From contig JAIBAJ010000001.1 in assembly GCA_019695265.1 (NCBI GenBank), positions 98,347 through 145,921 on the forward strand: a stretch of DNA of 47,575 bases. The letters are read 5' to 3'. This DNA is from Bacteroidia bacterium. Lineage in GTDB: Bacteria > Bacteroidota > Bacteroidia > JAIBAJ01. Every line of letters starts with the position of its first letter. The stretch's first letter is position 1. A program made the position numbers and the translations under genes. The notes under the pieces were generated by a model. That model worked only from the letters and a program-made list of their open reading frames with translations. It had not been told where the DNA came from and did no database searches. Below, one piece after another: positions 19,890 through 31,469 of this stretch.

Positions 19890-20040
19890 TTGCACCCTCG
19901 GGCAACGATAGAGGCAAGTAGCTCCAAGCCAACGCAGCGTTTAGCGGAGTTGGCTTGGACTACAGCCGATAGCGTGACCCGAACGCCCGTGCAAGGTATT
20001 GGGGTTTAGCAAAACTAGTGTTGGGCGGAGGGGGCCCGCA
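19890..20040. repeat. Dispersed structured repeat R1, copy C (solo half-unit)
   Basis: A single half-unit, ending GGCGGAGGGGGCCCGC at the side facing rocD. It folds as nested stems: TTGCAC/GTGCAA, TCGGG/CCCGA, GTAG/CTAC and an apical stem of eleven pairs, TCCAAGCCAAC with GTTGGCTTGGA. Its partner half is missing; R2 lies in that direction. The outer end is 53 nt from the rocD stop codon. Confidence 0.85.
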
Positions 20041-20093
20041 TACTAGGAATTTAAAAATAAACGATTCGTCTCGGTGGACTTATTCTGCAGACC

Positions 20094-26730: not shown

Positions 26731-28038
26731 CTAGAAAGAAAACTGCATGCGGCAGGTAAAAACATCGTCTTTAAGATCTTGCTCAAAGCCCTTCAAACTA
26801 GTTTTTTCATTGCGCACCCAATCATAGAATAACATCAATTTAAGGTTGGTATTAATGAGGTAATTAAATCCAAATCCAAAGGTTTGAAATTTGATATCTG
26901 CCTCGGTAAAGTTGGATGAAGCCGGTCCAATTTCAGCGCCACTCACTTTGGAATTAGGATCGAAAAAATCATACTTAAAAACCAGTTGATAATTTGGTTT
27001 GAAAACGGGTTGTATGAAGTAAAAAATACCGGCATTAAAAGGACGGATATAAATAGGATTGGCCAATTCGGTAGTATTTGCAGGGGTTCTATTAGAAGAT
27101 TTGGAACCTGTTTGAGTACCCATCCAAAATTCGGCTCTCAGTTCAGTAATCCCCCATTTTGTTTTCAATCGGAATTGGGCATCGGCTTCGTAATATTGCC
27201 GCGGTGCCAGGCGTCCCACATTGGAAGGATTGGAATCGACTACAAACACTTGATTACCATTTGAACCGGTTTGAAGAAAATAGCGAGTTGGAATTTGCTG
27301 ATTAATACCACCCGAAAGATAAGAGATGGAGGCAGAAAAGTCGAATTTGTTAACGTGATTAGCTCGGATAAAGGAAAGGCGACCAATTAAATCTTTGGTT
27401 TGGTCAAACTCTAAGTTATTAGTAAGGCCTTGTCCGTTGGAAACACTAAAGTCCAAAGAAAAACGATTCAACAATCCGGAAGCTTTTCTTGGCTGAATGG
27501 TTACCATGGCGCCCAGGTCGCGTTCGACCGGCAAGAGGGTTTGAGACACCCTACCCCGTTCAGGCGACTCCCTGACAGCAGAAGAATAATTCACTTCAAA
27601 TCCGAAAGGTCTGGCGTAAACTCCGGTGGTAAAACAAAGCAAGCCCCATTTTTTTTCATAGATTCTTCCAAAAAAATCACGGATAAAGACTCCTCTTTCC
27701 GTGCCATCGAATTGAAAAACAAAATAGATAATAGGTAATTTTTGCTTGTTGAGTTTAAGATAATCAAACCTAATTCTACCTCGACGCAGGGTAAACCTAT
27801 TGTTTGAATTAGAGCTAAAGTCCCCGCCTGAGAAACCTTTAGCGCCTTTGGATTCGGCCCATTGGTATTGGGGTTGAATATAACCTGAAATGTTAACATT
27901 ACCAAACTTCTTCAGCAATGGTCTGAGTGTATCCACCATTAACAAAGAGGAGTCGGGTATGGTGATGAAAGGTTGCTGAGCGAATACATTTTGAATTAAA
28001 CCCAATCCAAGAAAACAAAAAAGAAGGAATTTTTTCAT
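26731..28038 (-). CDS. Phosphate-selective porin (OprO/OprP family)
   Basis: The 435-residue outer-membrane protein begins with a signal peptide (1-20). It has the features of an OprO/P-type porin: N-terminal NVNISGYIQPQYQWAESKG, RFTLRRGRIRFDYLK, alternating amphipathic strands with aromatic girdles, and a terminal strand ending in Phe (CRMQFSF), the usual outer-membrane assembly signal. Porins of this family form trimers and pass phosphate or polyphosphate. Its neighbours are two inner-membrane phosphate transporters on the opposite strand, which supports the substrate. The divergent 269-bp region carries Pho-box-like repeats. R1-D lies just after its stop. Confidence 0.9.
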   Translation of the reverse strand: MKKFLLFCFLGLGLIQNVFAQQPFITIPDSSLLMVDTLRPLLKKFGNVNISGYIQPQYQWAESKGAKGFSGGDFSSNSNNRFTLRRGRIRFDYLKLNKQKLPIIYFVFQFDGTERGVFIRDFFGRIYEKKWGLLCFTTGVYARPFGFEVNYSSAVRESPERGRVSQTLLPVERDLGAMVTIQPRKASGLLNRFSLDFSVSNGQGLTNNLEFDQTKDLIGRLSFIRANHVNKFDFSASISYLSGGINQQIPTRYFLQTGSNGNQVFVVDSNPSNVGRLAPRQYYEADAQFRLKTKWGITELRAEFWMGTQTGSKSSNRTPANTTELANPIYIRPFNAGIFYFIQPVFKPNYQLVFKYDFFDPNSKVSGAEIGPASSNFTEADIKFQTFGFGFNYLINTNLKLMLFYDWVRNEKTSLKGFEQDLKDDVFTCRMQFSF

Positions 28039-28069
28039 TCAGCTTAACAATTTGATAATTCTGCAAAAA

Positions 28070-28119
28070 GATTGCCTTAATCTTGTTTAAAGTTTGCCTT
28101 AATATTAATTTAATGTTAA
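28070..28119 (-). promoter_or_regulatory. Pho-box-like 11-bp direct repeats upstream of the phosphate porin
   Basis: On the minus strand: TTAACA (28119-28114), N5, TTAATA (28108-28103), N5, GCAAAC, N5, ACAAGA, N5, GCAATC. Repeats are phased at exactly 11 bp across about 50 bp. On the plus strand this appears as repeated TTGCCTTAAT 22 bp apart. PhoB/PhoP-type response regulators bind 11-bp-spaced direct repeats. A near-match -7 element (TCTTTTTG, 28071-28064) follows, about 26 nt before the ATG. Confidence 0.6.
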
Positions 28120-28244
28120 GAAATGGCCCAAACATGGATTAAATACAAAAATCTAATTATCAATAGATTATAAATCCATCGCTTGCAACCCTACTACAAG
28201 CCGGACAAAGGAAAAAGAATGAATTTGAAGATTAGGAAAGAAAC

Positions 28245-28289
28245 TTTACATTGGCTTAACATTGGAAGGGGGGACCACTAATATTTTTG
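28245..28289 (+). promoter_or_regulatory. Pho-box-like direct repeat and -7 element upstream of PiT
   Basis: TTTACA (28245-28250), TTGGC, TTAACA (28256-28261), TTGGA: two 11-bp units agreeing at 9 of 11 positions. The second unit overlaps the -33 region of a promoter whose -7 element is TATTTTTG (28282-28289), 18 nt before ATG 28308. An activator box replacing the -33 element is the classical Pho arrangement. Confidence 0.6.
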
Positions 28290-28307
28290 CTTCAAAATTT
28301 GAAATAG

Positions 28308-29708
28308 ATGGATTTATCAGTTAGTTTACTAATTCTTCTTGCCATTTGCATTTTGTGTGCATGCGCCTTTGAATTTATCAATGGATTTCATGACACGGCC
28401 AATGCAGTAGCGACTGTAATTTACACCCACTCCTTAGAGCCAACCAAGGCCGTTTTACTTTCAGGAATTTGCAATGCTTTAGGGGTATTGGTAGGAGGAA
28501 TATCGGTTGCTATGGGAATTATTAATTTGTTACCGATAGACATATTACTTGACCAACAGATTTCGCATAGTTTGAGCATGGTGTTTGCGATGTTATTGAC
28601 AGCTATTATTTGGAATTTAGGCACCTGGTATTTAGGCATTCCGGCATCGAGTTCTCATACCTTGATAGGCTCCATTTTAGGTGTTGGGCTTGGATATTCC
28701 TTGTATTCGGGTGGAAGTTCATCTACAGTGAATTGGGGAAAAGCCGGCGACATCGGACTTTCCTTATTAATTTCTCCGTTCTTCGGGTTTAGTCTTACCA
28801 TTTTCCTTATGTTTTTAATGAAACAATTTATCAAGGATAAAGAGATATTCAAAGAGCCAAACAAAAAGAAAGGTCCACCCAATTGGATAAAGTATTTATT
28901 GTGGTTTACCTGTGCTTCGGTGAGTTTTACACATGGATCGAACGATGGACAAAAAGGAGTTGGACTAATTATGCTAATCTTAATTGCGATTGCACCAACC
29001 TACTACGCTTTGGATATGGAAAAGAACCACAAGGATATGTTTTCGCAAGTGGCCCAGATTCAAAATGTTGCCTTTGCATTGGAACATACCAAGCTATCGT
29101 CTACAGATAGCGTACAGGTTTCAAAAATAAGTACTGAAACCTCCCAGTTAAATGCTTCTTTGGCCGCCATGGGAAATGATATTCATTTTAATAAGCAAGA
29201 TCGGTTTAGAGGCAGAAAGAACATTTTGATTATTGAAAAGGCCAGTAAAAAACTTTTGGAAAGTGAGGATTTGGAGATTAGCGAATCACAACGCAAGGTG
29301 CTAAGCGGTTCGGTTAAAAAACTTTTGGATTATACCAATTACACCCCACTATGGGTAATAATACTCATATCCTTATCGCTTGGTATCGGCACCATGGTTG
29401 GCTGGAAACGAATCGTAGTGACCATTGGAGAGAAAATTGGAAAAACCCATTTAACTTATGCACAAGGAGCAAGTGCCGAATTGGTAGCAGCAAGCACCAT
29501 TGGAGTTAGCACTATGTTAGGACTGCCGGTAAGCACCACCCATGTGCTTTCTTCGGGAATTGCAGGCAGCATGGTTGCCAGCAGTGGAATAAGAAACCTT
29601 CAGCGTAAAATGGTAACGAACATTGGATTAGCATGGGTACTTACACTTCCTGTTTGTATAACCTTATCGGCCAGTTTGTTTTATCTATTCCGCCTCATTG
29701 CCGGATAA
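28308..29708 (+). CDS. PiT-family inorganic phosphate transporter
   Basis: The 466-residue inner-membrane protein carries both PiT signatures: FINGFHDTANAVAT near residue 24 and SFTHGSNDGQKGVG near residue 205. PiT carriers move phosphate, usually as a metal-phosphate complex, with protons or sodium. Five or so membrane helices precede and about four follow a soluble loop of roughly 100 residues (about 240-340), which in this phylum is often acidic and charged. It is divergent from the porin and 15 nt upstream of the Na/Pi cotransporter. A pit gene without a PhoU-like partner on its own strand is explained by the PhoU-like domain in the next gene. Confidence 0.93.
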   Translation: MDLSVSLLILLAICILCACAFEFINGFHDTANAVATVIYTHSLEPTKAVLLSGICNALGVLVGGISVAMGIINLLPIDILLDQQISHSLSMVFAMLLTAIIWNLGTWYLGIPASSSHTLIGSILGVGLGYSLYSGGSSSTVNWGKAGDIGLSLLISPFFGFSLTIFLMFLMKQFIKDKEIFKEPNKKKGPPNWIKYLLWFTCASVSFTHGSNDGQKGVGLIMLILIAIAPTYYALDMEKNHKDMFSQVAQIQNVAFALEHTKLSSTDSVQVSKISTETSQLNASLAAMGNDIHFNKQDRFRGRKNILIIEKASKKLLESEDLEISESQRKVLSGSVKKLLDYTNYTPLWVIILISLSLGIGTMVGWKRIVVTIGEKIGKTHLTYAQGASAELVAASTIGVSTMLGLPVSTTHVLSSGIAGSMVASSGIRNLQRKMVTNIGLAWVLTLPVCITLSASLFYLFRLIAG

Positions 29709-29723
29709 TCAAATTAGGGTAAG

Positions 29724-31469
29724 ATGTTATTTGGCATGTTGAATTTTCTTCAGTTTCTAGGTTCTTTGGGTTTATTCCTGTATGGAATGAAAACCTTAAG
29801 TGAAGGAATTCAAAGAGCCGCCGGTGAGCCTTTAAGAAACTTGTTGCGATCGGCTACCAAACACCGAATTTTAGGGGTGTTAACCGGGATGCTATTGACC
29901 ATCGTCATTCAATTTTCTTCTGCATCAACCGTGATGTTTGTGAGCTTTGTGAATGCAGATTTACTAACGGTTTTCCAAAGTTTTTCATTAATTATTGGTG
30001 CCAATATCGGAACCACCCTGAAAGGATGGCTGTTTGCCTATGTGGGATTTCAAGGTCAAATTCAGCTTTCGCACATTGCCATAGTACTATTAGGATTATT
30101 CTTTCCTGCTCTTTTTAGCAGAAACAAGAAACTCAAATACACGGCTGAATTCTTTTTTGGGATGGGAATTTTGCTGATAGGGCTTGATTTTTTAAAACGC
30201 AGCTTACCGGATGTACAAGAACACCCTGAATTGGTAGAATGGATAAGGAGTTACTCCTCACAAGGCTCAGCATCATTACTTTTATTTGTACTTATTGGAG
30301 CAATTATCACGGCCTTATTGCAAAGCTCATCAGCCATGATGATTATTGTTTTAGTTTCTGTAAGTCAGGGTTGGGTGGATTTTTACCATGCTTCAGCTAT
30401 GATATTGGGAGAGAATATTGGGACAACCATAACTGCAAATCTAGCAGCACTGGTGGCAAATACGAATGCCAAACGGGCAGCTTTGTTCCATACGCTATTT
30501 AATTTAACCGGTGTAATCTTATTCTTGCCACTGCTATATCCCGCCTTGCAACTATTAGATCTGTTTTGCACCCAGGTTCTTCAAATGCCTGTATCTGCCT
30601 TTTCTTCTGCACCTAAGGCTCAGGAGGCCGTTATTCCTGTTGCATTGGCCGTTTTCCATACCATGTTTAACACCCTTACAGCATTGGTTGTTCTTCCTTT
30701 CCTGAAACAATTTGAAAAACTGCTATTATTTATTTTACCAAATAGAGAAGAAGAAGAACAGCACCATCTTCAATACATAAGCCGAGGACTTCTTAACACC
30801 ACCGAAATATCTCTGGAAGAAGCTCGTAAAGAAATTGCAAGGTTTGGAAATATTACTCGCCGAACCACTACGTTTATTCAGTCCATCGTAGACGAAAAGG
30901 AATCCAAACACAAAGAAATACTTATTGAAAGAGTTGCAAAATATGAAGAAATAACCGATCGGATTGAATTGGAAGTGGCCAGTTATTTATCGCATGCTTC
31001 AGAACAAGAAATAAGTGTTGAAACCAGTCAACAAATTAGGGCAATGCTGATGGTAATTGGAGAATTGGAAACCATAGGCGATATTTGTTTTCATCTGAGC
31101 AAATCGCTGGAAAGGAAAACAGAGCAAAAAATCTGGTTTAACCAGGACCAACGGGATTATTTAAAAGAATTACATATACAATTGGTTAAGGCTTTTGATA
31201 TTATGATTGAGAATTTAGAGGCCAATTATGATAAAGCCCAAATAGAACAATCCTTGATGTTAGAGGCAAGTATTAACTCCTTGCATGATAAGGCAAGAGA
31301 TAAAAACCTCAAGCAAATTGAAAAAGGAAAGGTAAAATTAAATGGGGCATTAATTTTCAACGACCTGGTAAGTGGTTACGAGAAAATCGGCAACCATGTA
31401 TTAAGGGTTTCCCAAGCCATAGTTGGAATTAATACCAAAAGGAGTTTGATTGGAGAGTATGGAGCTTAG
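29724..31469 (+). CDS. Na/Pi cotransporter family protein with C-terminal PhoU-like domain
   Basis: The 581-residue protein has the NptA/SLC34-like repeats: FSSASTVMFVSFV with GANIGTTLKGW, then QSSSAMMIIVLVS with GENIGTTITAN. These two inverted Q-S-S/GxNIGTT repeats form the sodium and phosphate path. Residues about 345-570 are a helical PhoU-like domain (coiled E/K-rich helices), usual in bacterial members. ATG 29724 is 15 nt after the PiT stop; ATG 29736 is an alternative. The two phosphate carriers form an operon and probably differ in affinity or coupling ion. The stop codon overlaps that of the convergent vWA gene by 4 nt. Confidence 0.92.
   Translation: MLFGMLNFLQFLGSLGLFLYGMKTLSEGIQRAAGEPLRNLLRSATKHRILGVLTGMLLTIVIQFSSASTVMFVSFVNADLLTVFQSFSLIIGANIGTTLKGWLFAYVGFQGQIQLSHIAIVLLGLFFPALFSRNKKLKYTAEFFFGMGILLIGLDFLKRSLPDVQEHPELVEWIRSYSSQGSASLLLFVLIGAIITALLQSSSAMMIIVLVSVSQGWVDFYHASAMILGENIGTTITANLAALVANTNAKRAALFHTLFNLTGVILFLPLLYPALQLLDLFCTQVLQMPVSAFSSAPKAQEAVIPVALAVFHTMFNTLTALVVLPFLKQFEKLLLFILPNREEEEQHHLQYISRGLLNTTEISLEEARKEIARFGNITRRTTTFIQSIVDEKESKHKEILIERVAKYEEITDRIELEVASYLSHASEQEISVETSQQIRAMLMVIGELETIGDICFHLSKSLERKTEQKIWFNQDQRDYLKELHIQLVKAFDIMIENLEANYDKAQIEQSLMLEASINSLHDKARDKNLKQIEKGKVKLNGALIFNDLVSGYEKIGNHVLRVSQAIVGINTKRSLIGEYGA

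Follow-up and report, generated by a model that had tools for sequence, protein, structure and literature searches.

Candidate PHO-type operators for a PhoB-family regulator in the divergent porin and PiT-NptA promoters of a Bacteroidia genome

Are the 11-bp direct repeats that lie between a divergently transcribed porin gene and a phosphate transporter gene in this Bacteroidia genome the operators of a phosphate regulator? Transcriptomic studies have delineated the PhoB regulons of both Bacteroides and Flavobacterium, and in the open literature that we searched (a scope outside which subscription journals and regulon databases lay) we found no published definition of a Bacteroidota Pho box, which leaves the DNA site undefined there. 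The B. fragilis study, in which PhoB was found to bind a 512-bp fragment of the pstC promoter, gives neither a consensus nor a repeat for this protein (PMC3547664), and the F. johnsoniae study gives neither a motif nor a Pho box (PMC8115612). PHO-box sequences are reported to vary between bacteria (PMC4415409). We propose, with a probability of about 0.86, that both promoters contain PHO-type operators of a Bacteroidia form, with the half-site (C)TTAACA(T)-N4, that would be bound by a PhoB-family regulator and activate the porin and PiT-NptA genes.

The features of the locus are collected in the table, with positions referring to the window, that is, the whole stretch of 47,575 nucleotides that was analysed. 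The best NCBIfam model for the PiT product is PitA, at 421 bits, short of that model's cut-off of 800, and the NptA-type gene follows PiT after a gap of 15 bp. No homologue of PstC (TIGR02138) was found in this genome, while 64 of the 149 sampled Bacteroidia have matches; because PstC is missing from it, PiT, NptA and the porin of this locus are probably the main phosphate uptake of the genome. In this pst-less organism, a single intergenic region of 270 bp probably sets most of the phosphate uptake.

Table. Coordinates of genes and promoter elements in the window; candidate operators are given with their repeat units.
Feature	Position	Strand	Details
OprP/OprO-type outer-membrane porin gene	26731..28038	-	PF07396, E 3e-4, 20.6 bits, slightly below the 20.9 cut-off
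Intergenic region between the divergent porin and PiT genes	28039-28307		About 270 bp
Weak -7 element of the porin promoter	28064..28071	-	TCTTTTTG, 5/6 consensus bases; 49 bp (38+11) from box start
Three degenerate 11-bp units	28066..28098	-	GGCAAACTTTA, AACAAGATTAA, GGCAATCTTTT; lag-11 self-similarity
Candidate PHO-type operator, porin	28099..28120	-	Two strong units, CTTAACATTAA and ATTAATATTAA; both matrices; TTAACA 28119-28114, N5, TTAATA 28108-28103
Whole porin array	28120-28066	-	Strong and degenerate units
Candidate PHO-type operator, PiT-NptA operon	28244..28265	+	11-bp units CTTTACATTGG and CTTAACATTGG; both matrices; TTTACA 28245-28250, N5, TTAACA 28256-28261
TTG at the -33 position	28262..28264	+	Closes the second half-site; 17 bp ahead of the -7 element
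-7 element of the PiT promoter	28282..28289	+	TATTTTTG; 38 bp from box start
PiT-family inorganic phosphate transporter gene	28308..29708	+	PF01384, 299.5 bits
Na/Pi cotransporter gene, NptA type, with C-terminal PhoU-like domain	29724..31469	+	PF02690 and PF01895 above cut-off

The initial annotation had described 11-bp direct repeats in both divergent promoters, and on re-reading the sequence we found its repeat coordinates to be exact on the PiT and the porin sides alike. The two PiT units are identical at 10 of 11 positions, a degree of similarity that is matched at lag 11 by a fraction of 2e-5 of the window positions, and the TTG at the -33 position of the PiT promoter forms the end of the second half-site. 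On the porin side, an array of five units had been claimed. As an array it is real, with 26 of 46 matches at lag 11 compared with a mean of 12.1 (a value reached by 1.5e-4 of the 57-mers in the window), but units 3 to 5, which extend it into the core promoter, are degenerate. A weaker box-like sequence, CTTAACAATTTGATAATTCTG (28043-28063, +; score 11.2), lies in the porin leader on the opposite strand and outside the array.

One alternative would be that promoter DNA rich in A and T yields such repeats by chance, as the bare pattern might suggest: within this genome, TTWACA-N5-TTWACA has 8 matches against 7 for the reversed control, i.e. it occurs at chance level, and a three-mismatch pattern likewise stays at the level of its reversed controls. 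Our case rests on an extended matrix, on position and on a fixed spacing to the -7 element, not on the bare pattern. We trained a first matrix on 18 PiT promoters of other Bacteroidota and a second one, with no PiT sites, on DUF47, porin and NptA sites of other genomes that carry the exact core pattern. By the first matrix, the porin operator ranks first in the window (20.2 bits) and the PiT operator second (19.6 bits), compared with a best score of 6.1 on either strand outside the intergenic region; by the second, the PiT operator ranks first (26.1) and the porin operator second. That matrices trained elsewhere place both sites at the top of the window, together with the conserved -7 spacing and the enrichment before phosphate genes described below, makes an origin by chance hardly credible.

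The initial annotation had itself named conservation upstream of orthologous phosphate genes as a test of its proposal, and the repeats are in fact conserved there. We sampled 80 PiT loci from Bacteroidota other than this genome and from a small number of further phyla. A motif-free comparison of the 180 bp upstream of PiT made lag 11 prominent among lags 6 to 23, with 16 of 77 cases compared with 1 to 9 for the other lags, and in about 20 of the loci the gene strand reads CTTAACA-NTNN-CTTAACA(TTG). By the second matrix, a box lies no more than 220 bp from the gene at 46 of 83 PiT genes and 7 of 18 porins, as opposed to 1 of 374 other genes of the same loci (Fisher test, 6e-39 for PiT and 9e-10 for porins, with kinship between genomes ignored); about half of the PiT genes have no recognisable box. 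Boxes are also present at 9 of 30 pstC loci, every one of them on the pst strand. Across 396 Bacteroidia genomes, the exact sequence CTTAACA-N4-CTTAACA occurs at about 82 sites, compared with about 27 for its reverse, and the genes behind these sites are mostly DUF47, PiT, NptA and porin genes. The genomes compared include no relatives of the same family or order.

The spacing between box and core promoter is conserved as well. When the same 396 genomes were searched, with no choice of genes, for TTAACA-NTNNN-TTAACA-N6-36-TAnnTTTG, 79 matches were obtained, compared with 3 for the reversed pattern. Among the 77 of these that were listed there are 75 distinct sequences, and in 63 of these 75 the distance from box start to -7 element is 27, 38 or 49 bp (±1), where an even distribution would give 22 (p 7e-23, kinship between genomes ignored). 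In about 20 of 29 loci, the genes behind such sites encode PiT, DUF47/PhoU-like proteins, NptA, a porin, PstC or PhoB. Similarly, in 54 phosphate promoters the -7 element was found at 38 bp 19 times, at 49 bp 9 times and at 60 bp 4 times, and one phase modulo 11 holds 43 of the 85 -7 matches. The spacing of 38 bp seen at PiT in the window is the most frequent one among the PiT genes of other Bacteroidota, and the 49 bp of the porin recurs at five porin loci of other genomes; in several promoters with a spacing of 49, the extra turn is filled by weaker units. The boxes of the window thus stay on a constant face of the helix relative to the core promoter, a criterion by which a PHO box is recognised, at 38 bp for PiT and 49 bp for the porin. 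As far as sequence can tell, the operator works as a PHO box in every operator test that we ran.

A broader reading, which we consider somewhat better than an even bet, is that a Pho operator common to the class exists in Bacteroidota, with its own consensus, three discrete promoter geometries (strong half-site pair at 27, 38 or 49 bp from the -7 element), one regulator, degenerate units in the gap and the primary sigma factor. If the three geometries are real, one regulator would activate from three positions, each a helical turn apart, and activation would go through the unusual primary sigma factor of Bacteroidota. The matrix and the spacing rule could make phosphate regulons predictable from sequence across a phylum that is important in the gut, the soil and the sea, and the geometry of activation on TAnnTTTG promoters becomes directly testable.

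Which protein would bind these sites? The genome encodes seven OmpR-type regulators, one of which, on contig C10, is PhoB-like: its two best NCBIfam models are TIGR02154 (PhoB) and NF053854 (Bacteroides PhoB). As it stays under both equivalog cut-offs, with 223.2 of 296.2 bits and 215.7 of 270 bits, respectively, we call it PhoB-like, or a member of the PhoB family, and not PhoB; the box-adjacent regulators of other genomes are likewise under the PhoB cut-offs. It combines a receiver domain (PF00072) with a winged-helix output domain (PF00486), and its recognition helix, DRTIDVHIRKLREK / RTIDVHIRKLREK, is close to that of E. coli PhoB, DRTVDVHIRRLRK, with few differences. Elsewhere, genes of the PhoB clade lie divergent from or beside the boxes of TonB receptors (two loci), porins, DUF47 and pst, and in one further locus a box stands directly 5′ of phoB, with the -7 element at 38 bp.

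It could be argued that another OmpR-family regulator of this genome binds the repeats, given that there are seven to choose from, that tandem 11-bp sites are found family-wide and that the promoter of the genome's own phoB-like gene has only a weak box (GTTAACTTAATCTTAATGCGA, score 4). Nevertheless, in several other genomes the regulators adjacent to boxes belong to the PhoB clade, standing at 57-71% to the C10 protein and at no more than 39% to the next regulator of this genome, and no other regulator recurs beside boxes, which renders the alternative quite improbable. In the tree, PhoB copies with and without a linked box intermingle, with no separate clades and with the recognition helix common to both, and linkage alone therefore singles out no orthologue. 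Four genomes have two PhoB-like regulators with near-identical helices, one of which is box-linked, and in some genomes two regulators may share one operator. Two loci have a box upstream of a PhoB-related response regulator of about 122-126 aa that consists of a receiver only, and in one of them this gene is divergent from phoB. In the present genome, two KdpDE-like sensor/regulator pairs (contigs C44 and C192) each have a KUP-type potassium transporter beside them.

From the biology of PhoB and from the phase rule, we infer the following mechanism for the PhoB-like regulator. Its output domains would bind the tandem half-sites head to tail, along one face of the DNA, and the bound regulator would adjoin the -33 region of a TTG-N17-TAnnTTTG promoter on its upstream side, or overlap it. 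It could then recruit RNA polymerase and hold the sigma factor where the -33 region of the promoter is poor. In this way, one intergenic region would activate the porin in one direction and the inner-membrane transporters PiT and NptA in the other. Binding by this regulator, activation rather than repression, and a response to phosphate are all predictions.

A PhoB-family regulator might be bound here and activate PiT and the porin constitutively or in line with growth, with no starvation switch. A phoB mutant of B. fragilis expresses BF3715 (PiT) and pstCAB at 52- to 500-fold lower levels, yet phosphate limitation does not change their expression in the wild type (PMC3547664); OprP (Fjoh_0542) of F. 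johnsoniae is not induced (PMC8115612); and the PhoB-like regulator gene of our genome has no PhoR gene beside it. On the other hand, other PhoB targets respond to phosphate in B. fragilis (PMC3547664) and in F. johnsoniae (PMC8115612). In the latter organism, OprP and a TonB receptor adjoin phoBR, and the receptor Fjoh_0545 is induced (PMC8115612), and it is this induced receptor that the box-adjacent TonB receptors resemble in type and position. We consider activation without a starvation switch rather unlikely, while giving it more weight than the other alternatives discussed here, and retain PHO-type operators of a PhoB-family regulator as the preferred reading.

Among known systems, the E. 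coli PHO box bound by PhoB (CTGTCAT-N4-CTGTCAT) is alike in its tandem 11-bp units, each with a 7-bp core and a 4-bp spacer, in preceding the core promoter of genes for phosphate uptake and in the nearly equal recognition helix of its regulator. Both half-sites have T in the second position and CAT in positions 5 to 7, but CTGTCAT is replaced by TTAACAT here, and the core promoter is of the Bacteroidota type, with a TTG at -33 and TAnnTTTG at -7, the latter lying at 27, 38 or 49 bp. The E. coli arrangement, with about 10 bp between the box and the -10 element downstream of it, comes closest to the 27-bp class. The initial annotation had also seen a resemblance to the Firmicutes form. The PhoP box of B. 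subtilis reads TT(A/C/T)A(C/T)A, its units standing 5 bp apart, and both sites of the window match it in letters and in spacing, TTAACA included, a likeness that is silent on descent; the 7+4 register fits E. coli equally well. Unlike the PhoP box, the Bacteroidota sites conserve a C before and a TTG after the half-site, beyond the PhoP-like core, and the best NCBIfam model for the regulator is PhoB. Because the 7+4 register suits E. coli and the regulator is PhoB-like in its helix and best NCBIfam model, no link to Firmicutes is needed. Cyanobacterial PHO boxes, which are repeated CTTAACCT-like octamers, share the CTTAAC core and the 11-bp phase, but here CTTAACAT stands in place of CTTAACCT.

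As for further members of the regulon in this genome, a TonB receptor gene on contig C15 has a box, GTTAACACAAACTTAACCTTG (20023-20043, -; score 16.8), with TTGTTTTG at 49 bp. Its product has Plug and CarboxypepD_reg domains and resembles in type the box-adjacent receptors of two other genomes; it is probably a third member. The promoter of a lipid-kinase gene on contig C39 has the correct spacing, and we dropped it for its matrix score of 4.2. Finally, a gene for an M1-type peptidase lipoprotein on contig C88 has a box scoring 20.7 (865-885, -), with a -7-like sequence that overlaps the start codon, a misfit to the geometry described above.
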